Assembly: GCA_958295845.1 (NCBI GenBank)
Contig: OY282376.1
Location: 1,005,022 to 1,069,021 of the forward strand
Reading direction: 5' to 3'
DNA length: 64,000 nt
Origin: Caldilineaceae bacterium
GTDB taxonomy: Bacteria > Chloroflexota > Anaerolineae > Caldilineales > Caldilineaceae
The stretch's first letter is position 1, and each line of letters opens with the position of its first letter. Shown here piece by piece: positions 38,789 through 57,834 of this stretch. The position numbers and the translations under genes were made by a program. The notes under the pieces were generated by a model. It saw only the letters and a program-made list of their open reading frames with translations, made no database searches and had not been told where the DNA came from.

Positions 38789-38933
38789 GCTCTGCTCCTC
38801 GCTTTCCTGGAAATCGACACTGTTTGAAGGGCGCCCGCACAGGAGTGCATCCACTTATCAAAAGCAAAAGTCATACTAGCACCAAAGAGACTTTCGCGTA
38901 AACGCCTCGATTCCATCCCCCCCAGCGCCTGTA

Positions 38934-38955
38934 GGGGCACCCCTTGTGGGTGCCC
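38934..38955 (+). repeat. Dispersed hairpin, variant stem CACCC/GGGTG
   Basis: Arms GGGCACCC and GGGTGCCC flank CTTGT, preceded by GTAGG. It shares loop and flanks with the hairpins at 2498, 14514 and 42812 but has a different, still fully paired stem. Confidence 0.88.
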
Positions 38956-39076
38956 TTGCACACCCCATTCTGGACCGCACACCCTATCCAAACCGACTGG
39001 GATTGCGAACTGAAGAACAGATAGTGTAGAGTAGTCAAAACGCGAATGCGATTCAAACCGGCAGGAGACCAACCCC

Positions 39077-40477
39077 ATGCGCCGCCCCAATTTCCTCATC
39101 ATCTACACAGACCAACAACGCTGGGATGGCCTCGGCGCAAACGGCAATCAGGATATCCACACGCCCCACCTCGACAGACTGACGAGCCAGAGCGTCAACT
39201 TCGACCACTGCTTCGTCCAGAATCCCGTCTGCATGCCCAGCCGCCTCAGCTTCCTCACCGGGCAATATCCCTCCACCCTCGGCGTCACCCACATGGGCGT
39301 GCCCGTGCCCGAAGATACCGTCACCCTGCCCCGCCTCCTCGCCCCCTACGGCTACCGTTCCGCCAATATCGGCAAGCTTCACTTCCAGCCCCACGCCAAC
39401 CGCGATCACCGTACCCATCACCCGCCCTACGGCTTCGACCATCTCGAGATCTCCGACGAACCCGGCTCCTACGAAGATGCCTACCGCGCCTGGGTTCGCC
39501 GTCTTGCCCCCGACCAGCTCCCCCACGTCAGCCTCGGCCAGGCCCCCATGGCGGAAGTCTGGCAGGAGACCATGAAAATCGAAGACGGCATCGAACACCC
39601 GCCCGAACGCTTTCCCATCGAACCTCTCGCCTCCCGCTGCCGCGACGACATGACCCACACCGCCTTCGTCGCCGAACAGTCAATCGAATTCATGCGCCAC
39701 CAGGCCCGGACCGGCCAGCCCTTCCTCTGCATCGCCGGTATCTACTCCCCCCACTCCCCCTGGGTCGCCCCGCAACAGTACTTCGACCTCTACGATCGCG
39801 CCGCCCTCACCCTTCCCACCTTCCCGCCGGAAGTTGAGGCGAAACGCGGAGCGCAAAACTTTCCCGACGACGAGCTGCGTCTCGCACACCAGGGCTACTA
39901 CGGCCAGATCAGCGAAGTCGACCACCATGTCGGCCGCCTCCTCGCCGCCATCGACGACCTCGGCATCGCCGACGATACCGTCGTCATCTTCACCTCCGAC
40001 CACGGCGAATGGCTCGGCGAGCATCTCCGCTACGGCAAGGGCTATCCCGCCCACGACCAGTGCAGCCGCGTCCCTCTGCTCATTCGACCGACCGGCGATA
40101 CCGCCGCCGCCCGCAGAGATTCAGGCCTCACCGAAGCGCTCGACGTCCTGCCCACCATCCTCGACCTGGCCGGAATCCAGAATCCGCCCCACCTGCAAGG
40201 CGCCTCCCTGCTGCCCCGCCTGCACGACGACGCGCCCGGAGGCGCCTCCGCTCTCACCGAGCACACCGGCTGGAAATCACTCCGCACCGAGCGTTTTCGC
40301 TACCTTCTCCACGCCGACGGCACCGAAAACCTTTTCGATCTTTCCGCCGAGTGGGGTGACTACCGCGACCTATCGCAAGACCCCGCCTACGCCCCGGACC
40401 TGGCCGCGTCTCGTCACGAACTGGCCCGCAAGCTCCTGGCCGCCGAGAGGCCGCAGCCGCGCGCATGGCCCTACTGA
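39077..40477 (+). CDS. Sulfatase (formylglycine-type, arylsulfatase/choline-sulfatase family) (1)
   Basis: A 466-residue sulfatase. The active-site sequence CMPSRLSFLTG (Cys52) is the C-x-P-S-R signature in which Cys is converted to formylglycine; Asp12 and Gln13 (IIYTDQQRW) and the later TSDHGEWLGEH provide metal ligands. AGGAGA is upstream of the ATG. No signal peptide is visible, so it is probably cytoplasmic. No formylglycine-generating enzyme is encoded in the window. It is followed 22 bases later by a Rieske protein. Confidence 0.92.
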   Translation: MRRPNFLIIYTDQQRWDGLGANGNQDIHTPHLDRLTSQSVNFDHCFVQNPVCMPSRLSFLTGQYPSTLGVTHMGVPVPEDTVTLPRLLAPYGYRSANIGKLHFQPHANRDHRTHHPPYGFDHLEISDEPGSYEDAYRAWVRRLAPDQLPHVSLGQAPMAEVWQETMKIEDGIEHPPERFPIEPLASRCRDDMTHTAFVAEQSIEFMRHQARTGQPFLCIAGIYSPHSPWVAPQQYFDLYDRAALTLPTFPPEVEAKRGAQNFPDDELRLAHQGYYGQISEVDHHVGRLLAAIDDLGIADDTVVIFTSDHGEWLGEHLRYGKGYPAHDQCSRVPLLIRPTGDTAAARRDSGLTEALDVLPTILDLAGIQNPPHLQGASLLPRLHDDAPGGASALTEHTGWKSLRTERFRYLLHADGTENLFDLSAEWGDYRDLSQDPAYAPDLAASRHELARKLLAAERPQPRAWPY

Positions 40478-40499
40478 GAAAATCCCCGTGGGAGAAAGC

Positions 40500-40976
40500 A
40501 TGTCCAGCAACAGTACGCAGTCAGCCCCCCAGCCAGCCGCCGAGAACTCTCCTCGCCGCGCCGGCACCCGCCCCCATCCCATCTGCCGCGCCAGCGACCT
40601 GCCCCCCGGCGAACGCAAAATCGTCGAAGTGCGCCGCCGCTCAATCGGCGTCTTCAACGTCCACGGCGAGTACTACGCCCTGCGCAGCCTCTGCCCCCAC
40701 CAGGGCGCGCCCCTCTGCCGCGGCACCATCACCGGCACCGCCCGCTCCACCAACCCCGGCGAAATCATCTGGGAACGCGCCGGCCAGATCCTGCGCTGCC
40801 CCTGGCACGGCTGGGAGTTCGACATCGCCACCGGCCAATCCGTATTCAACCCCCACCGCCTGCGCGTCCGCACCTACGACGTAACCGTCGAGCAGCCCGA
40901 CCAAGACGAGGAAGATCCCTCGGTCGAAAGCTTCGAAGTAACCGTCGAAGACGGTTGGGTGGTGCTGCACGCGTAG
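40500..40976 (+). CDS. Stand-alone Rieske [2Fe-2S] protein
   Basis: A 158-residue protein with one Rieske domain. Iron-sulfur ligands are Cys65 and His67 (CPHQGAPLC) and Cys100 and His103 (CPWHGWEFD). The first 25 residues are polar and Pro/Ala-rich. The two motifs are separated by a longer loop (residues 74-99) than in many Rieske ferredoxins. The start was placed at the ATG with GGGAGA upstream. It has no oxygenase large subunit beside it and could be a ferredoxin for an oxygenase encoded elsewhere, or a nitrite-reductase-small-subunit-like protein. Confidence 0.9.
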   Translation: MSSNSTQSAPQPAAENSPRRAGTRPHPICRASDLPPGERKIVEVRRRSIGVFNVHGEYYALRSLCPHQGAPLCRGTITGTARSTNPGEIIWERAGQILRCPWHGWEFDIATGQSVFNPHRLRVRTYDVTVEQPDQDEEDPSVESFEVTVEDGWVVLHA

Positions 40977-41004
40977 AACCGTCGACTGGATGGCAATCTG
41001 AGTG

Positions 41005-41430
41005 ATGCAAGAATTTCCCGAGCAACGAAAAGGACTCGCGGCCAACCTGACTACGACCTTCTGTAGGGCCGCAGAATTCCTGAACGAAGGCGACATTGGT
41101 GGACTCAAAGCTGGGTCGGTAACCTTTTTTGTCGCCCTGATTGTCGCTTTTGTCGGCCTGATCTTCTTTCATACAGCTTTCTTCCTGTACCCCCTCGTAA
41201 TAGGGTCAATTGCAGGACAGGTCGCGTATTTCCTTATCTGCAAGCGAACTGGTCTTGGCGGCTACCTCTTGGAGACAGGTATAAGAATCGCGGCAGTGGG
41301 TGTAGGGTGGTTGATTTCCTATGCCTTTCTTGACCCTAATTCGTTCTTGTACCTTCTACCCATCGTTATTGCGTTGTTCGTCGGCGATGGCGTGCTCGCC
41401 CTGTACCGCAAACGGTATCGCAAGCCATAG
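41005..41430 (+). CDS. Small membrane protein, tandem family member 1
   Basis: A 141-residue protein with four hydrophobic segments after a polar leader of about 40 residues. It resembles the next two genes in its last 80 residues: an aromatic-containing segment then ICKR, GVGWLISYAFLDPNSF, LLPIVIALFVGDGVLALYRKR. The ATG follows an in-frame GTG one codon earlier; either is possible. It is visibly AT-richer than the surrounding genes. Family not recognised. Confidence 0.65.
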   Translation: MQEFPEQRKGLAANLTTTFCRAAEFLNEGDIGGLKAGSVTFFVALIVAFVGLIFFHTAFFLYPLVIGSIAGQVAYFLICKRTGLGGYLLETGIRIAAVGVGWLISYAFLDPNSFLYLLPIVIALFVGDGVLALYRKRYRKP

Positions 41431-41570
41431 CGCAGCCCGATTGCCCCATCGCCACCAACGATCGTTGTTCGGGGTACGGGGAGACGCCCTGAAATTCGCT
41501 TTATGTCCCTCCAAATCCTCCGTGGTTCGACAGAGTTACTTTTCAGACAATAAATAGGTACAAACTACAG

Positions 41571-41948
41571 ATGATTCGCAACTGGAAGGAAACTCCCGGC
41601 AAGCTCGCTCTAATTTTAGGGATGTCTGCAAGTGTTGCAATCGCGATTTGGTTGCACGATGCCTTTCTTGCCGAGTCCGACGTTCGGCTGAAAACAATCT
41701 TCATATTCATCGCGGCATTGACAACCGCATATGTGCATTCCCTTATCTACAAAAGAGAAACGTTGCGAAGTCTTCGTGACGAACTCTTCTCATTGGGAAT
41801 CGTCGCCGCAGGTTTAGGCGTTGGGATTTGGATCTCCTTTGCCTATTTGGACGGCGACTCCTTCCTGGGCAGTCTACCCATTATAGTTGGAATTTTCGTC
41901 GCCTGGGGAGTTGAATCCCTGATCCTTAAAAGGTTTGGCAAAGCATAA
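41571..41948 (+). CDS. Small membrane protein, tandem family member 2
   Basis: A 125-residue membrane protein of the same layout as its neighbours: a short polar N-terminus, a first hydrophobic pair, IYKRETLRSLRDE, then GVGIWISFAYLDGDSF, LPIIVGIFVAWGVESLI and a final positive KRFGKA. It is AT-richer than the flanking catabolic genes. The upstream region has no strong ribosome binding site. Family not recognised; four transmembrane helices expected. Confidence 0.65.
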   Translation: MIRNWKETPGKLALILGMSASVAIAIWLHDAFLAESDVRLKTIFIFIAALTTAYVHSLIYKRETLRSLRDELFSLGIVAAGLGVGIWISFAYLDGDSFLGSLPIIVGIFVAWGVESLILKRFGKA

Positions 41949-42081
41949 CAGTCTCCCCACACGTCTGGACTTTCCTAACAGGGGACAGGCATCGCCCGAA
42001 AGGTAGAGGACCGATTTTCCTCAAGTATTACTTCCAATCCATCGCCCGTTACAACAGCAAGAAAGCGAGCCCTATCCTATC

Positions 42082-42456
42082 ATGGACAAAATTCTGACGA
42101 GATGGCGGAAAATACCCTACCTCCACTCAAGCCTCATCTTGACACTCGGAGTCCTTCTCCTCGGCGACTGGCTCGGCGGCGGCTTCTTCCTAAACGACTT
42201 TCGCCTCCGCTACGCCTTCATGTGTATCGCCGTCTCCGCCGTCTACTTCCTCCAGGTACTGGTCTACAAACGAAAAAGCCCGTCCGACGTCCTCACCTCG
42301 CTCGCCATCTTCATCCCGGTCATCGGGGTCTCAGTATGGCTGTCCTTCTCTCTATTCTCCGCCGACGCCTCCTCCAACTTCGTACCCATCCTTGTAGGTA
42401 TGTTCTTCGCATTCGGCCTCGATCTCTGGGTCGCCAGAAGAATCCGCCGACCATAG
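42082..42456 (+). CDS. Small membrane protein, tandem family member 3
   Basis: A 124-residue membrane protein, the third of the set: VYKRKSPSDVLTSLAIF, GVSVWLSFSLFSADASSNF, VPILVGMFFAFGLDLWVARRI. In GC content and codon use it is closer to the main genome than members 1 and 2, and RPx endings (RRIRRP versus YRKRYRKP) show further parallel features. The three likely arose by tandem duplication and divergence. Function unknown. Confidence 0.65.
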   Translation: MDKILTRWRKIPYLHSSLILTLGVLLLGDWLGGGFFLNDFRLRYAFMCIAVSAVYFLQVLVYKRKSPSDVLTSLAIFIPVIGVSVWLSFSLFSADASSNFVPILVGMFFAFGLDLWVARRIRRP

Positions 42457-42533
42457 CGCCCCCGCCGCAACTTTCGCATATCTCTTGCTGCAACCAAGCC
42501 ACGATCATCTCCAGTCCCGATCTCTGTGAGCCC

Positions 42534-42721
42534 AATCGGTGTCACTCTCTCCTCTCTCCTCTCTCCTCTTCACTCTCTCCTTGCCTTTGGGCGTCCGGGC
42601 CTTCGGCCCTCCCTTGTGCGGGGGCTGCGCCCCCGCAACGCCCCGCCCTTACTAGACCACCGTGCTTATTCTTCCCCAGCAACGTGTCTAGAGAACGGTG
42701 TCTAGCCAACAGTGTCTACCC
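42534..42721 (+). repeat. Mosaic dispersed repeat, copy 3
   Basis: It matches copy 1 from the CACTCTCTCC leader through the GGGCC-TTC-GGCCC and GCGGGGGC-TGC-GCCCCCGC hairpins, the ACGCCCCGCCC tract and three 14-bp tail units (GTGTCTAGAGAACG, GTGTCTAGCCAACA, GTGTCTACC). The 42457-42991 gap also holds the heptamers CTAACCA, CTAACCA, CTGCAGT (42752-42772) and a dispersed hairpin. Confidence 0.92.
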
Positions 42722-42811
42722 CCCCCACTCGCTGTCTCGTGCCACTACCCGCTAACCACTAACCACTGCAGTTCGCTGCGCCCGCCCGCCTTCCCCCTCA
42801 AATGACCTGTA

Positions 42812-42833
42812 GGGGCAGGCCTTGTGCCTGCCC
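42812..42833 (+). repeat. Dispersed hairpin, stem CAGGC/GCCTG
   Basis: Arms GGGCAGGC and GCCTGCCC flank CTTGT after TGTAG. It is the same variant as the units in the 2449-2707 array. Confidence 0.9.
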
Positions 42834-42991
42834 TGTGCCCCTTTTGTCAACGGGCCCACGTTACGGCCAGGCCCCTGCCCTAAGTCTCTCCAAGAGCCGG
42901 AAGTCAACTCCAGCCACCTATTGCATAATCCCCCCGATAATCCCCCCGCCAGCCTGTTCCCACTGCGTGGGACTGGAAATTCGGCGGATTA

Positions 42992-43234
42992 ATGAAGGAA
43001 CGGTGGGTCCTGGTTGCCTTGAAGAACGGAGTTTCTTTCGCTGGCCTATATGGTAGGGAATCCTTTGCAGCCTCCAATCCGGAAGAAAAAGACTTGGATA
43101 TCCGGTGGATTAATGATATTAACGAAGATGGTACTTGGTCTTCTGCAGGTGAAAAAGGTGTCCTGATAACAGCCGACGAAGTCAGCACGATAGAGTTCTG
43201 GGACTATTCCCCTGAGGAGAAACTACATGCATAA
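42992..43234 (+). pseudogene. 5'-truncated DUF6338-family remnant (cytoplasmic C-terminal part)
   Basis: The 80-residue frame (ERWVLVALKNGVSFAGLYGRESFA...EKGVLITADEVSTIEFWDYSP) matches the soluble C-terminal domain that I associate with DUF6338 proteins, whose N-terminal part is normally membrane-spanning. The frame stays open for 51 bases upstream of the ATG and reads PTAWDWKFGGL, the linker preceding this domain in full-length relatives, and then stops at a TAA (42938-42940). The membrane part is therefore missing, apparently replaced by repeat-rich DNA. The ATG could still be used; no good ribosome binding site was seen. Family call is from memory of its motifs. Confidence 0.6.
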
Positions 43235-43415
43235 GCGTGACGGTAGAAAGTCATTTGGAAAGGGATATCAGCCAAAAGGAAGCAAGGATTCCCCCAAGAG
43301 CCCGCCCACCAACACGCCAAACCAGTTGAGCAGTGGATTCAAACGATCGCAGTCCCATTCACAGACCCAACCTTCTGATGGACCTCCTGCCTCCTCTTCT
43401 TCGCAGAAGAAGTAG
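43227..43415 (+). CDS. Small polar GYQP-type partner of DUF6338
   Basis: A 62-residue hydrophilic, probably disordered protein, starting MHKRDGRKSFGKGYQPKG and rich in Ser, Pro, Gln and Lys. It overlaps the preceding frame by eight bases with GAGGAGA a few bases before its ATG. Small proteins with a KGYQP-like motif follow DUF6338 genes in other bacteria as I recall them, which supports the gene. Its role is unknown. The low GC agrees with the upstream remnant. Confidence 0.55.
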   Translation: MHKRDGRKSFGKGYQPKGSKDSPKSPPTNTPNQLSSGFKRSQSHSQTQPSDGPPASSSSQKK

Positions 43416-43635
43416 AATTCGCCTGCGAATTACGTTTTTCCTATTACCCTGAACTGAAGGACGACCTGAAGTCACGCCCCGCCCGCTACCGACCCATTAC
43501 CCCAACTCTCCGAGAGCCTGCCCCATTTCGAACTACACCTAACCCCATCGGTCCCCCATCCCCTACCGCAATCCCTCTACGCCCTGCCCATCCCTCCCTC
43601 AGCCCCACAAGCGTCACCCCATCGCCTCCCATCCC

Positions 43636-43672
43636 GAAAATCCCCAAAAATCCTGCAAATCCTGATTCAGAC
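43636..43672 (+). repeat. AATCCTG-type short repeat
   Basis: Units near 9-10 bp (AAAATCCCC, AAAAATCCTG, CAAATCCTG) precede ATTCAGACAA. The 43416-43864 gap has no supported gene apart from this element. Confidence 0.6.
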
Positions 43673-43864
43673 AACGACCACCCCACAAAATGCCAAGCCG
43701 CCAAAGTCGGTGTAAAATAAGGCAAACACCTTCCCCCCAACCCCTGCACGCCGCGAAAAGGGCACGCGCCCCGAATTCACCCGTCCACAGCCCAGAGCAG
43801 TCACACCGACGCACCCAACAGCACCGCCTTCACATCCCAACTCCACCCCACACGAGGATCAACC

Positions 43865-45031
43865 ATGGCCGACCCAATCATCACCAAAATCGAAATCCAC
43901 ACCTACGAAAGCGAGAGAGTAAACCTCGGCAAAGACTATAACGGCTTCAATCTCGTCTACGAGCCGGGCAGCCGCATCAAGGCCCAGGGCAGCATCCTCC
44001 GCATCGAAACCGACCAGGGCATCGCCGGCGAATACGCTGGCGGCGGTGGCGCCGATGCCGCAACCATTCCCACCTTTGCACACTTTCTCATCGGACGCAG
44101 CGCCCTCCAGCGCGAACTCATTTATACCGAAGTCAAACGCGCCCTGCGCCAGGTCGCCCGCATCGGCATGGCGCCCATCGACATCGCCCTCTGGGACATC
44201 GCCGGCAAACTATACGACCAGCCCGTCTACAAACTGCTCGGCGGCTACAAAGACAGCATCCCCTGCTACGCCAGCACCTACCACGGCGACCACCAGCCCG
44301 ACGGCCTCTCAACACCTGAAGCCTTCGCCGACTTCGCCGAACAGTGCCTCGAGCTCGGCTATCCCGCCTTCAAAATCCACGGCTGGGGCCAGGCGCCCGT
44401 CAGCCAGGAAGTCGCCAACGTCCACGCCGTTGGCAAACGCGTCGGCGACAAGATGGACCTCATGCTCGACCCCGCCTGCGAGCTCATGACCTTCGGCGAC
44501 GCCGTCAAAGTCGGCTGGGCTTGCGACGAAAACCGCTTCTTCTGGTACGAAGATCCCTACCGCGACGGCGGCATCTCCCAGTTCGCCCACCGCAAGCTGC
44601 GCCAGCTGATAAACACGCCCATCCTCCAGACCGAGCATGTCCGCTCCCTCGAGCCCCACATCGACTTCGCCCTCGCCGACGCCACCGACTACGTGCGCGG
44701 CGATGTCGGCTACGACGGCATCACCGGCGTAATGAAGCTCGCCCACGCTTGCGAAGCCCTCGGTATCGATATCGAATTCCACGGCCCCGGCCCCGCCCAG
44801 CGCCAGTGCATGGCCGCCATCCGAAACACAAACTACTACGAGATGGGCCTGCTCCACCCCAAGGCGCCAGCCAGCCACGTGCCCGAACTGTACATCGACT
44901 ACGTAGACGACCTCGAAGCCATCGACGCCAACGGCCACGTCTCCATCCCCCAAGGGCCCGGACTTGGCGTTGACATAAACTGGGATTGGGTAGAGCGAAA
45001 TCGCGTGTCAGTGGTAGAATACGGCAACTGA
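43865..45031 (+). CDS. Mandelate racemase/muconate lactonizing enzyme family protein (enolase superfamily) (1)
   Basis: A 388-residue enzyme with the enolase-superfamily barrel. The metal ligands are Asp202 (LMLDPACE), Glu229 (WYEDP) and Glu257 (LQTEHVRS); Lys170 and His172 (FKIHGWG) and His306 (EFHGPG) are the acid/base residues. Such proteins dehydrate acid sugars or racemise alpha-substituted acids by removing a proton next to a carboxylate. The ATG has GAGGATC upstream. Followed by a DHDPS-like aldolase, a sulfatase, a Gfo/Idh enzyme and an SDR in the same direction, a plausible sugar-acid pathway. The exact substrate is unknown. Confidence 0.9.
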   Translation: MADPIITKIEIHTYESERVNLGKDYNGFNLVYEPGSRIKAQGSILRIETDQGIAGEYAGGGGADAATIPTFAHFLIGRSALQRELIYTEVKRALRQVARIGMAPIDIALWDIAGKLYDQPVYKLLGGYKDSIPCYASTYHGDHQPDGLSTPEAFADFAEQCLELGYPAFKIHGWGQAPVSQEVANVHAVGKRVGDKMDLMLDPACELMTFGDAVKVGWACDENRFFWYEDPYRDGGISQFAHRKLRQLINTPILQTEHVRSLEPHIDFALADATDYVRGDVGYDGITGVMKLAHACEALGIDIEFHGPGPAQRQCMAAIRNTNYYEMGLLHPKAPASHVPELYIDYVDDLEAIDANGHVSIPQGPGLGVDINWDWVERNRVSVVEYGN

Positions 45032-53804: not shown

Positions 53805-54194
53805 CTAAAAGGGAATATCCTCCTCACCGCCCGCCACAGCGCCCCCATCAGCCCCGCCGCCCGCAGGCGTCCCCTGCCCACCGGCCTGACCCCAGCCACC
53901 GGCAAGCGCTTCACTTTCTGCCCGCGTGTTCAGGAACCGCACAGTCCGCGCCGTAACTTCCAGCGAAGCCCGCGTATTCCCCTCCTGGTCCGTCCACGTG
54001 TTGGGCTCCTCAACTTCGCCGACAACCAGAACCCGCTGACCCTTCGTCAGGTACTGATTGCAGGTCTCTGCCAGTCCCCGCCACGCTGCCACTCGGAACC
54101 AGACCGTCTTCTCCTGGCGCTGGCCGTCCTGGCCAGTCCAGGACCGACTGGTGGCGACACTGAAGTTGGTTACGGCCACACCGCTGGGCGTGTA
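53805..54194 (-). CDS. ssb: Single-stranded DNA-binding protein SSB-1, 3' exon (gene split by group II intron)
   Basis: This is the 129-residue remainder of an SSB protein, beginning YTPSGVAVTNFSVATSRSW and ending with the acidic tip EEDIPF that recruits repair proteins. Motifs WTGQDGQRQEKTVWF, NQYLTKGQRVLVVGEVEEP and ARTVRFL show the OB fold. Fused to the 18-codon exon at 56637-56690 it gives a normal 147-residue SSB in frame. An isolated ATG inside would give a truncated protein missing two strands, so intron splicing is needed. The Gly/Ala-rich linker (residues 100-140) is standard. It is the most downstream of three ssb genes. Confidence 0.9.
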   Translation of the reverse strand, partial: YTPSGVAVTNFSVATSRSWTGQDGQRQEKTVWFRVAAWRGLAETCNQYLTKGQRVLVVGEVEEPNTWTDQEGNTRASLEVTARTVRFLNTRAESEALAGGWGQAGGQGTPAGGGADGGAVAGGEEDIPF

Positions 54195-54254
54195 GTAGGG
54201 TAGGAAGCAGGTGAGTTACTGTTTTTCTCAGTACTTTTCCTACTCCCCCCCTCC

Positions 54255-54288
54255 GAACCGTGCTTGCGACTTTCATCGCACACGGCTC
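54255..54288 (-). ncRNA. Group II intron domain V (catalytic hairpin)
   Basis: Read on the minus strand, the 34-base motif starts GAGCCGTG, carries TGCGATGAAAGTCGCA in the middle and ends CACGGTTC. The AGC catalytic triad and the GAAA-type tetraloop are present, and the pairing is complete apart from a two-base bulge. Domain VI follows and begins GTAGGAAA, closing with TTCCTAC close to the 3' splice site. Confidence 0.95.
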
Positions 54289-56096
54289 TCCAGTTTGATA
54301 TTCCAGTTATCCCATTCACTTCTGTGCTTGCCTGCGTGTATGTCTTTGTGACAGGTTTTGCAGACTATCAGAGTTTTTCTTCTGAGTGCTGACATCCTTC
54401 GTACCCAAGCCGGTTTCTTCTTTCTTCCCGGTTTGTTTAGGTCTTTCAGTTTTTGCACATGGTGAACTTCGACTTCGCCTTCTTTTTCACACATATCGCA
54501 CTTGTTACTTGACATTCTTGTGAGTAGTTCACTGCGGTTTGTTCCTATCATGCCGCCATATCCTACTCTAGTAACTTTGTCCTCTATCTGTGTTTCTGGC
54601 TTCCGTATCAGAGGTATAGCTCCGTAGTGTGCCGTGAGTGTCTTCTTTCCTTCCCTTTCTATTTTTGCTTCAAAGACTCTGTAGGTTTTTCCGTTTACAA
54701 TTTTGGTCTTTTTGTATTTTTTGACCATTTTGTTTACGGATGTTTTATGTTTTCCTGCCAGTGTCTTTAGAAGGGAGGTTGAAGTTACCCATTCCACTTC
54801 GCTGAGGCGGTGAACGTTATGCGCCATTTGGTAGTACTGAACGAGTCCCCTGTATTCTGACTGGAACATTGCGATAATATCGAAATCGCTGTTTAGTAGT
54901 AGTTCCGGTCTGTGTACAACTTTCCCGTTTTTTGTGTACTTCCTTTTGGTGTTTTGTATGACTTCCCTGGGAACTCCCAGCCAGATTGTCCCGTTGGCGC
55001 TTCTTCTCTCGTTTCTCTGCATTACGCAGAGGTCGTATCCGAGGAATTTTGCTTTTTCGTCTCTGGCGTGTGTTATCAGTGTCTTTTCTATTGATAGCTC
55101 TAGGTCGAGTTCTCTTTCGAGGAATTCACTGATTCTGTTCCGTATTTCTTCGGCCTCTTTTTTTGGGCCGGCGAAACTGAGCAGGAAGTCATCGGCGTAT
55201 CTGATGTATTCCAGTTTTCTGTAACTATCGTCGTCAATTACTGACGGGATAGTTTTCATCAGCTTGCCGTAACGTTCGTAGGCTTCTACGTTTCCCTTTT
55301 CTCTCGCTTGTCTACGTTTGAATTCGTAGTGTCGATATTCAGGGTTTCGTTTTCTGCCTTTTTCCTTCAGACTGCCATAGTTGTAGTGCGGTAGCAGTTC
55401 TTCTTCGACCCAGCTATCGAAAACATCCAGATAGATGTTTGCTAGTAGTGGGCTGATGATTCCGCCTTGCGGCGTCCCGCTGTATGTTCCGTACCACTTC
55501 CAGTCTTCCATGTATCCTGCTTTCATCAGGTACTTTACCAGATTTAAGAACCTCTGGTCTTTGATTTTTTCTTCCATGATTCCCAGTAGGGTTTCTTGGT
55601 CGATGTTGTCAAAGCACCCTTTTATGTCTCCTTCTATGAACCAACTCGTGTCTCGGTGTGATTCACGAATCTGTTTCAGTGCAGTGTGGCATCCCCGTCC
55701 GGGCCGGAACCCGTGGCTGCGTTTACTGAACTGTTGTTCGTAGAATGCTTCCAGTAGGATTTTCATGGCGGCTTGTAGGAGCTTGTCGTCCCCAGAAGGG
55801 ATTCCTAGCGGTCTTTCCCTACCATCTCCTTTTGGTATGTACGTTCTGCGTACTGGGTTCCATCTGTAGGTTGCTGTTTTGACTCTCTGGATTATTCCGG
55901 TGATTCTCTTATGAGACATTCCGTCCAGTGTGTCTTCACTAGTTCCTTGTGTGATGGCTCCCTTATTTGCGTATATTTCCGCATACGCTTTTTCGTACAG
56001 TTCCTTTTTGAAGAGTTGCCTATACAGTCTTTCCAGAGTTTTGCCTTGCTTCCCTCTGCTCTGGATGACATTCAGTACAGTTTCGATTTTCTGCAT
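54273..56096 (-). CDS. Group II intron reverse transcriptase/maturase with HNH endonuclease
   Basis: A 607-residue intron-encoded protein. The reverse transcriptase core holds FIEGDIKGCFDNID and the YADD box near residue 300 (IRYADDFLLSF); TPQGGIISPLLANIYL is the family motif between them. A maturase (X) region follows, then a C-terminal HNH nuclease with CDMCEKEGEVEVHHV and CKTCHKDIH. It promotes splicing and retrohoming. The stop codon TGA is inside domain V of the intron RNA, so the last residues (ESRVR) are read from the catalytic hairpin. The protein start has GGGAGA about ten bases before it. All catalytic motifs appear intact. Confidence 0.94.
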   Translation of the reverse strand: MQKIETVLNVIQSRGKQGKTLERLYRQLFKKELYEKAYAEIYANKGAITQGTSEDTLDGMSHKRITGIIQRVKTATYRWNPVRRTYIPKGDGRERPLGIPSGDDKLLQAAMKILLEAFYEQQFSKRSHGFRPGRGCHTALKQIRESHRDTSWFIEGDIKGCFDNIDQETLLGIMEEKIKDQRFLNLVKYLMKAGYMEDWKWYGTYSGTPQGGIISPLLANIYLDVFDSWVEEELLPHYNYGSLKEKGRKRNPEYRHYEFKRRQAREKGNVEAYERYGKLMKTIPSVIDDDSYRKLEYIRYADDFLLSFAGPKKEAEEIRNRISEFLERELDLELSIEKTLITHARDEKAKFLGYDLCVMQRNERRSANGTIWLGVPREVIQNTKRKYTKNGKVVHRPELLLNSDFDIIAMFQSEYRGLVQYYQMAHNVHRLSEVEWVTSTSLLKTLAGKHKTSVNKMVKKYKKTKIVNGKTYRVFEAKIEREGKKTLTAHYGAIPLIRKPETQIEDKVTRVGYGGMIGTNRSELLTRMSSNKCDMCEKEGEVEVHHVQKLKDLNKPGRKKKPAWVRRMSALRRKTLIVCKTCHKDIHAGKHRSEWDNWNIKLESRVR

Positions 56097-56636
56097 TTCG
56101 CAATTCTCCCTGTCTGTATGTCCATCTTACCTGTCCCCCTTCGCCTTGTAAGCGGCTTTCCCGCTCTCTGACTACTACGGGGACTCCGTTCTCATATGCC
56201 TCTCGGCACTTAGAGAATCCCGAATTCTCGTGCTAGTTTACGATAGTGTCCCTTAGACTTCCCGTTCGTTTCCTTGGTCTTGCTCTCTGCAAGTTTTCTC
56301 CCCGTTGGCAGGTAGCTCACCGTCTGAGATAACCGGTTCGCCTTCTGGAGTGAGTCTACGCTAACCTCTCTCCCTGGGGACTTGGGTTACAGCCACGTTT
56401 CCCAAGAGTGCCCGATTTACACTGACTGGAAACTAGGATTTTGGCAGTCTAGCCTTAGTCATAGGATACAGGTCTTGGCGGTCTAGTGTTCATTGTGGCT
56501 ATTCCACTCTCCGCCTTTCCCACCATGCTGTTTTCCCCTCTCCTTTTCAGGTTCAGGTAGGGTGGGTGACCTATGGGGTATCCTGCTCCCCATGTCCACT
56601 AAGTGGACGATAAAACTAGCCGATTAGACGGCGCAC

Positions 56637-56690
56637 CCGCATCTCCGGATCGCGGCCCAGATTTCCTACCAGTGTGATCTGCTGATACAT
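56637..56690 (-). CDS. ssb: SSB-1, 5' exon (18 codons)
   Basis: The exon encodes MYQQITLVGNLGRDPEMR and is preceded by AAGGGGAGA near the ATG. It is identical in 17 of 18 positions to SSB-2 (Leu for Ile at position 7). Without splicing, translation would run into the intron and add unrelated residues before a stop, losing SSB-1. Confidence 0.92.
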
Positions 56691-56816
56691 GGCTCTCCCC
56701 TTTGTCTCTCTCCCAAAAAATATGCCGTTCGGGTCAAGGTCTGCTGCCTGCAGTCACACAATGGCCGGCTCTGCCACGCTGCAATTGAGCCGCCCAAATC
56801 GAGCAAGACCAACCCC

Positions 56817-57260
56817 CTAGAACGGTATATCCTCTTCACCAGCGGATTCCTGCACCGGGCCAGATCCGCCCCCTGCCTGTCCATCTTGCCCACCGTACTG
56901 CCTCCCGCCAGCGTCTATCGCCTCACTCTCTTCCCTTGAATTGAGGAACCGTACCGTCCGCGCCCGCACCTGGAGTGAAGCCCGCGCATTGCCCTCCTGG
57001 TCAGTGTAGACGTATGGCTCTTCCAATTCGCCGACAACCAAAACTTTTCGTCCCTTCGTCAGATATTGATTGCACGACTCGGCCTGCCTCTCCCATGCAG
57101 ACACGCGGAACCAGACGGTCTTCTCATTTCTTTGTCCATCTGCGCCTGTCCATCCCCGACTAGTTGCGACGGGGAATGAAGTGACAGCTGTACCGCTCGC
57201 CGTGTACCGCATCTCCGGATCGCGCCCCAGGTTCCCTACAATAGTAATCTGCTGATACAT
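56817..57260 (-). CDS. ssb: Single-stranded DNA-binding protein SSB-2
   Basis: A 147-residue intact SSB. MYQQITIVGNLGRDPEMRYTASGTAVTSF begins the OB fold (split here for length after GNLGRD), WTGADGQRNEKTVWF and LTKGRKVLVVGELEEP follow, and the Gly/Gln/Ser linker leads to EEDIPF, the tip that binds partner proteins. The ATG was chosen by homology and AAGGAAA upstream; an open frame of 86 codons before it is not SSB. It lies 148 bases downstream of SSB-3 and 126 before SSB-1, on the same strand. Confidence 0.94.
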   Translation of the reverse strand: MYQQITIVGNLGRDPEMRYTASGTAVTSFPVATSRGWTGADGQRNEKTVWFRVSAWERQAESCNQYLTKGRKVLVVGELEEPYVYTDQEGNARASLQVRARTVRFLNSREESEAIDAGGRQYGGQDGQAGGGSGPVQESAGEEDIPF

Positions 57261-57408
57261 TAAGAGATTTTCCTTGCTTCGAATGGTGTTGGATTTGTCG
57301 AAGATGTAATGAGATGGAGCGATCCCCGTCGACCGGCCCTGAACGCCAATTCCCAGCGCCGCTCCAAAACTTACGACTTCCTGGAAAACACTGATACAGA
57401 AGAGGATT

Positions 57409-57834
57409 CTAAAACGGAATCCCCTCGCCGCCATTGGATGACGGACTCGGTGCATGCTGACCGTTTGCGTACGTAGCTTGTCCCTCAGACACGACGTTAC
57501 CTTGCCCCCGCGAACCAAGGAACCGCACCGTCCGCGCCTGAACTTTCAAGTCGGCCCGTGCGTTACCATTGGCATCAGTCCACACGGCGGGCTCGTCCAA
57601 CTCCCCAATGACCAGCACGCGCTCGCCCTTCGAAAGATACTGATTGCAGGTCTCGGCCAGTCGTCGCCACACAGATACGTCAAACCAAACCGTCTTCTCC
57701 TGGCGCTGCCCGTCTGCGCCTGTCCAGGATCGACTGGTAGCAACTCTGAGATTCGTTACCGGATCCCCGTTAGGCGCGTGCCGCAGCTCAGGGTCATTGC
57801 CAAGATTCCCTACCAAAGTGATCTGCTGATACAT
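57409..57834 (-). CDS. ssb: Single-stranded DNA-binding protein SSB-3
   Basis: A 141-residue SSB, the first of the set to be transcribed. The OB fold is complete (GNLGNDPELRHAPNGDPVTNL, WTGADGQRQEKTVWF, YLSKGERVLVIGELDEP), but the C-terminal tip is GEGIPF in place of the more acidic EEDIPF of SSB-1 and SSB-2, which may weaken partner binding. A strong promoter with an SOS-box-like palindrome lies upstream. It is probably the least canonical paralog, and may have a specialised role, for example in competence or repair. Confidence 0.92.
   Translation of the reverse strand: MYQQITLVGNLGNDPELRHAPNGDPVTNLRVATSRSWTGADGQRQEKTVWFDVSVWRRLAETCNQYLSKGERVLVIGELDEPAVWTDANGNARADLKVQARTVRFLGSRGQGNVVSEGQATYANGQHAPSPSSNGGEGIPF

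Follow-up and report, generated by a model that had tools for sequence, protein, structure and literature searches.

Three neighbouring genes of a Caldilineaceae bacterium (Chloroflexota), which we call p1, p2 and p3 (Table 1), are by sequence comparison true tandem paralogs of one family of small membrane proteins. They lie in a stretch of 64,000 nucleotides, hereafter the window. The family has no curated model and is of a familiar kind, namely lineage-restricted tandem membrane genes. We hold its anatomy, relatedness and copy turnover, as described below, with high confidence. The best explanation of the whole, to which we would give about an even chance, is an accessory membrane family of a single genus, shaped by tandem duplication, loss and probably allele exchange. 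A previous reading of the sequence alone had already reported the duplication and the deviating base composition; new here are the restriction to one genus, a fixed slot with a gene-free site, the loss of copies, an allele step and unequal selection on the copies.

Table 1. Features at and around the p1-p3 locus (window coordinates)
Feature	Position	Strand	Evidence and remarks
Sulfatase	39077-40477	+	PF00884, E=4.7e-51; upstream of the Rieske gene
Rieske [2Fe-2S] ferredoxin-like gene	40500-40976	+	PF00355, E=1.3e-17; conserved neighbour
p1	41005-41430	+	ORF; 141 aa; four TM helices and an N-terminal extension of ~35 residues
p2	41571-41948	+	ORF; 125 aa, with four TM helices; the least common and least constrained copy
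p3	42082-42456	+	ORF; 124 aa, with four TM helices; the copy found in most genomes
p2-p3 spacer	41949-42081	+	Related to p3 leaders elsewhere; 11 leaders aligned, mean column identity 68%
Diverged block with p3, window versus G015	41949-43864	+	Sliding identity and dS; left edge known to one 150-base bin
80-aa ORF, last third of DUF6338	42992-43234	+	PF19865, E=2.2e-12, profile positions 132-202 of 205
Mandelate racemase/muconate lactonizing (enolase superfamily) gene	43865-45031	+	PF13378, E=8.8e-37; conserved neighbour, downstream

The coordinates and the lengths of 124 to 141 residues given in the sequence-only reading agreed with the ORF listing. Its observation that p1 and p2 are AT-richer than p3 and the surroundings was likewise confirmed: the GC content is 51.5% in p1 and 48.3% in p2 compared to 56.5% in p3, and GC3 is 0.57 and 0.54 compared to 0.76 in p3 and 0.76 to 0.87 in eight flanking genes. 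GC3 is even lower (0.475) in the DUF6338 fragment located downstream. The landmarks said to be shared by the three proteins (among them GVG-W-I/L-S and LPI-V-G-x-F) are broadly right without being exact, as p3 reads GVSVWLS and VPILVGMF and p1 reads LPIVIALF.

The Smith-Waterman scores were 123 for p1-p2, 75 for p1-p3 and 156 for p2-p3, compared to a maximum of 51 in a background of 233 membrane-like ORFs from 16 loci (stop-to-stop frames with at least two predicted TM segments, the family excluded and spurious frames still included). A drop of the similarity to that of any four-helix protein had been named as one outcome that would refute the duplication; the similarity observed stands well above this membrane-like background. 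We performed 18 shuffle tests (full, hydropathy-class and 8-residue-block shuffling, with local and global alignment and 1000 shuffles each); the score was reached by none of the 1000 shuffles in 17 of them and by two in the remaining one (p1-p3, local, block). A profile-profile comparison with HHalign between the p1-length group and the p2/p3-length group returned a probability of 98.7%. At the DNA level, units 1 and 2 match at 63% over 145 bases and units 2 and 3 at 60% over 146 bases, while the match of units 1 and 3 is limited to 32 bases. Finally, looking up strings of paralogs in other genomes, as the sequence-only reading had suggested, revealed the same paralogs in the same slot, with one to three open copies at the main locus across 13 genomes. 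The proposed tandem duplication is thus borne out by the pairwise scores, by HHalign and by these strings. Small hydrophobic proteins in a high-GC genome full of spurious frames could in principle resemble each other by chance or be no genes at all; this is refuted by the shuffles, the ORF background, HHalign and the selection data (dN/dS) given below, and its probability is practically nil.

No known family had been recognized for the three proteins, and this still holds. None of them approached a curated cut-off of Pfam or NCBIfam, PADLOC returned no family at E≤10, PHROGs gave weak hits only, and no title or abstract opening among the literature matches listed names such a family. Two Pfam families called for a closer comparison. 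DUF6249 (PF19762) also consists of small membrane proteins, in which a helical hairpin bears G-x-G and LIP/LPI-like motifs, and its model matched 6 of the 28 members of our family (defined below) at E≤1, the best being a p2 protein (E=0.002). However, members score 11 to 18.5 bits against a gathering cut-off of 33. With a DUF6249 profile built from 14 Chloroflexota proteins (17 matches, 15 taken, L078, which has no trimming motif, left out; two of those used fall below the cut-off), the best real member reached 2.5 bits and the best reversed sequence 4.0 bits, and HHalign gave less than 1%. The reversed controls and HHalign rule out DUF6249 as the parent family. LtrA (PF06772) resembles the family in that one p2 protein matches it over about 100 residues (E=1.5e-4), with 4/28 members matching at E≤1. 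Nevertheless, the best score was 21.6 bits against a cut-off of 31.9, and the match covers only part of this 356-residue family. A profile of four LtrA proteins scored the p2 proteins at 15.4, 9.9, 9.2 and 6.7 bits, all above the reversed sequences (at most 4.6), but the best shuffle (9.0 bits) exceeded one of these four scores; HHalign gave 3 to 7% for the p3-length and whole-family alignments and 0.1% for p1. A bestrophin match in a PDB profile search (best E=0.1) was taken as membrane-protein composition, and so were weak matches of one to four of the 28 members to DUF2569, DUF2964, TgpA_N, CcmF_C, YhhN, DUF5993, PrgI and others. Structure searches were run with the p3 model. Foldseek found no PDB match and the viral fold search no match at E≤0.001, and the VIA-align matches were helical bundles and receptors, the best (Z 7.1, rmsd 5.5, 110 residues aligned) being at a level common for helical bundles.

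We then turn to the distribution of the family. The window's own genome (5.4 Mb, one contig) contains these three copies only. A search with p2 matched 13 of 100 genomes at E≤0.01, namely the window's own and 12 others, all from one genus. We grouped the sequences recovered into 28 members (10 p1-type, 4 p2-type and 14 p3-type, types and starts being our assignment), leaving uncounted a further, weak hit in G014 (C18:56073-56237, E=0.002). The profile of these 28 sequences matched 13 of the 46 Caldilineaceae genomes, including the window's own, all within one of 17 genera, and found no member in the 16 other genera searched. Within the genus, 4/17 genomes are without the family (G003, G004, G008 and G013). 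In G003, G008 and G013 the surrounding gene cluster is probably absent as well, since the best Rieske match there is merely 51 to 53% identical. Among 400 genomes of the phylum, nothing was found besides the window's own genome and a single hit in G121, which lies within a 509-residue permease-like frame, looks like a chance match and was rejected. Searching named genome contigs with p3, an approach limited to close relatives, gave nine loci, all titled Caldilineaceae bacterium; we assume that such metagenome-assembled genomes derive from marine sponges. Neither viral contigs (exact short peptides of p1, p2 and p3; close relatives only), phages (p3 as query) nor plasmids (p3 and p1 as queries) contained the family. 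So far as searched, the family is therefore confined to a single genus of uncultured Caldilineaceae.

The main locus of the family has a constant setting. Its gene order is sulfatase, Rieske, family, enolase superfamily, aldolase-like, sulfatase and oxidoreductase-like (aldolase, second sulfatase and oxidoreductase being named by eye); the opposite strand encodes a dehydrogenase and a gamma-glutamyltranspeptidase. By tblastn, the 12 other genomes have these neighbours at 81 to 100% identity to those of the window (distant paralogs not counted), compared to 30 to 91% for complete copies of p1 and 68 to 76% for copies of p3, G012 apart. The family follows the Rieske gene in 13/13 main loci, p1 of the window starting 28 bp past the Rieske stop. 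In G004, which we set as the outgroup of the sulfatase tree, the cluster is intact but only about 55 bp separate the Rieske stop from the enolase start, and no family gene is present; this family-free site may represent either the ancestral state or a loss. No terminator-like site was found on the plus strand in 38800-44000, where the scan returned fewer sites than expected by chance, and Rfam gave no match in 40400-44000.

Several other features were noticed in and around the locus. The region of the DUF6338 fragment (42992-43412) is AT-rich, and tblastn found pieces of it at the corresponding position in L024, L026, L032, L034 and L035, as if a larger DUF6338 gene had once stood there. Short repeats of the type GTAGGGGC...GCCC are present at about 42809-42835 of the window, at L063 8889-8946 and in the locus spacers of several genomes, including the family-free site of G004. 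The second sulfatase of G010 (L027:5328-6883) was matched by two tblastn segments with overlapping query ranges, which would reflect either a frameshift or an assembly error. Elsewhere in the window, a group II intron occupies about 54190-56637 of the minus strand (Rfam RF00029 match at 54195-54290) and harbors a 607-residue reverse-transcriptase-like ORF (54273-56096, minus strand). It appears to interrupt a gene resembling those of single-strand DNA-binding proteins, the first codons of which lie at about 56690-56637 and the rest within 53805-54179. This gene is one of three such genes in tandem on the minus strand (53805-57834, named by eye), the others being 57409-57834 and 56817-57518.

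The three types differ in how they are retained. At the main locus of the 13 genomes, p1 is open in nine, broken in two and missing in two (G009 and G010). The broken copy of G002 retains about 40 N-terminal residues, and in that of G007 an internal deletion has left the last ~39 residues. With the starts that we chose, all nine open p1 copies are 141 residues long. p2 is present in 4/13 genomes, the G015 copy, which is counted among the 28, having ACG where the ATG start is usual. The p3-type gene is found in 12/13 genomes (it is missing in G011), and with the starts chosen, 11 of these 12 copies encode 124 residues, as do both copies at a second place (see below). The assignment of the G012 copy to p3 is ambiguous: it is 34% identical to p3 of the window and does not have the insertion that p2 carries after the KR motif, yet tblastn matches it best to p2 (36%). 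In most p3 leaders of other genomes, GGGAGGC or a similar element precedes the ATG and is a possible ribosome-binding site; it is weaker in the window. Frames of 208 to 315 residues in L027, L032, L034 and L035 that suggested a fusion of the Rieske and family genes were rejected, the added part being the Rieske region read out of frame.

Outside the main locus, G015 and G010, which are sisters in the sulfatase tree, carry a second p3-type gene about 430 bp behind ABC permease genes of the dipeptide type (DppC; the Dpp names at this place are our assignment by eye). G007 has the same two neighbours with no p3-type gene between them. A diverged p1-type gene also stands elsewhere in G014, on a contig whose start contains ORFs resembling, by eye, the same ABC transporter.

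Hydropathy analysis identified four helices in each of the three window proteins. As simple hydropathy gave three or five segments in 5/28 members and misplaced the helices in one more (p1 of G014), the four-helix count leans also on the alignment. Basic residues are scarce in loops 1-2 (0 to 2) and 3-4 (0 to 1) and frequent in loop 2-3 (2 to 5) and at the C terminus (3 to 5) in 22 of the 23 four-segment calls, and the N terminus of p2 and p3 is rich in them as well. Because basic residues mark the inner side of the membrane (positive-inside rule), this suggests that both ends of the family proteins face the inside. The N-in assignment is weaker for p1, whose N-terminal extension is not net basic (4 basic and 5 acidic residues in the window, 3 and 6 in G011). 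The predicted models of p1 and p3 (mean pLDDT of 60, low, and 75, middling, respectively) were compared by helix order: each contains four core helices, ordered alike and located at residues 2-38, 40-61, 67-91 and 101-122 in p3; p1 has one more in its extension. Conserved in at least 24 of the 28 members are, in p3 numbering, L5, H58, L60, R64, W86, S88, S96, P102, F108, K119 and R122. There is no sign of catalysis.

Four short helices and co-encoded paralogs would also fit a small transporter or channel made of different subunits, like the paired small multidrug resistance proteins. These have a conserved membrane-embedded glutamate, which has no counterpart here, as no acidic residue is conserved in at least 80% of the 28 members. 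In addition, p3-type genes occur without an open p1 or p2 in 4/13 genomes and p1 occurs alone in 1/13, and no family of this sort was among the weak matches. Such a transporter is thus very unlikely.

We compared the window's genome (G000) with its near relative G015, using Nei-Gojobori estimates, which carry no error bars. The dS values were 0.26 for the sulfatase, 0.13 for the Rieske gene, 0.07 for p1, 0.09 for p2, 0.74 for p3 and 0.22 for the enolase-superfamily gene. The same step is visible along the DNA. The flanks are overall 88 to 97% identical and, in 150-base bins, p1-p2 reach 93 to 99%, the spacer between them, although non-coding, still being at 93 to 95%. From the bin starting at 41924, approximately at the p2 stop, the identity drops to 64 to 83%, and beyond this point the alignment is poor and patchy, DUF6338 fragment included, until the enolase gene (93 to 97%). 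In turn, p3 of G015 is close to p3 of G010 (dS 0.13). It is therefore likely that copy 3 was swapped between lineages as a diverged allele, the change having occurred on either the G000 or the G015 side. Since a p3 tree with G000, G015 and G010 as one clade, compatible with ordinary descent, was not rejected (AU p=0.1), this allele exchange rests on the divergence step and not on the topology. For p1, dS between G000 and either G014 or G006 was 0.93 to 0.95 compared to 0.26 to 0.40 in the flanks, while p2 (0.32 to 0.35) showed no excess over the flanks.

The copies are also under unequal selection. Among the 22 closest of 91 pairs, dN/dS of p3 was 0.06 to 0.34; it was 0.21 to 0.67 for p1 (22 closest of 45 pairs) and 0.40 to 0.82 for p2 (all six pairs). 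By these ratios, p3 is under purifying selection and p2 is weakly constrained, and together with the copy losses they designate p3 as the kept gene, p1 as often lost and p2 as the weakest. The losses of p1, the weak constraint on p2 and its missing ATG in G015, and the family-free site of G004 could also be read as the signs of inserted foreign DNA, rich in AT, whose genes duplicate and decay while being of no use to the cell. The low dN/dS of p3 and its constant length both at the locus and at the second place speak against such passenger genes, which we consider quite unlikely.

As to what an accessory family would do, we propose the following. Because p1 lies so close behind the Rieske stop and the plus strand has no terminator-like site, p1-p3 would be read through with the cluster. 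The proteins would adopt the N-in/C-in topology with short outer loops and may form homo- or hetero-oligomers. They would be dispensable accessory proteins at the membrane rather than enzymes, and their small size, four helices, basic inner loops and lack of a conserved membrane acid are most readily explained by an accessory or structural partner. Most likely, they would modulate or stabilize a membrane partner, for example, a nutrient uptake system. Copy number differs between species owing to duplication and loss (with deletions in two genomes), and diverged alleles have probably taken the place of single copies; in the proposed role, copies would be added or dropped as the local need for transport or envelope adjustment changes. 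Nutrient uptake or envelope adjustment is our leading guess because a further copy stands close to ABC permease genes and the main locus belongs to a cluster with sulfatases; it is a tentative one, the ABC neighbourhood being limited to two genomes that are sisters. A metabolic link to the cluster would not be obligatory, given that G004 has the cluster without the family.

The constant place behind the Rieske gene raises the alternative that the family anchors the Rieske protein or takes part in quinol-linked electron transfer, and the helix-2 histidine (the H58 column), kept in 24/28 members, would suit this. However, two of the three copies in the window have another residue there (Y in p1, Q in p3), and the orthologous Rieske gene of G004 as well as the closest Rieske homologues, in G022 and G029, stand in genomes where the profile finds no family member. 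Moreover, tblastn detected no Rieske gene on the stretches fetched around the second place (L023 and L028). A Rieske anchor is therefore most improbable.

The allele step and copy turnover within a stable cluster, together with the low GC of p1 and p2, would also be expected from a polymorphic cassette that provides membrane immunity or exclusion against phages or rival bacteria, its copies being swapped and lost as the enemy changes. In line with this, the surroundings of the diverged p1-type gene in G014 (L025:9857-18000) include a transposase-like ORF at a distance of about 1 kb and, 3 to 5 kb away, ORFs that by eye resemble a cysteine desulfurase, a DndB-like protein, DUF4007 and a large ATPase and may form a DNA phosphorothioation or defence island. 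On the other hand, PADLOC has no match for the three proteins, no toxin partner was noticed at the main locus, dN/dS is below 1 in every pair considered, and the viral contigs, phages and plasmids gave nothing within the reach of those searches. Such a protective role is unlikely. Its more specific form, a multi-allelic cassette of this genus in a fixed slot, exchanged between species and guarding the cell while being expressed with the sulfatase genes, is decidedly improbable. If protection were nevertheless the function, the locus would represent a new kind of variable defence slot.

Whatever their function, p1-p3 offer a tidy case for studying the origin, spread and disappearance of lineage-restricted membrane genes in bacteria that are uncultured. 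A stable cluster as background, a gene-free site and intact, broken and diverged copies are available for comparison within 17 genomes of one genus. In its confinement to one genus, quick copy turnover and weak or absent similarity to anything outside, the family, which we regard above all as an accessory one, resembles other lineage-restricted (orphan) tandem families. It does not differ from them in principle; here, the genes sit inside a stable cluster and display an allele-divergence step.
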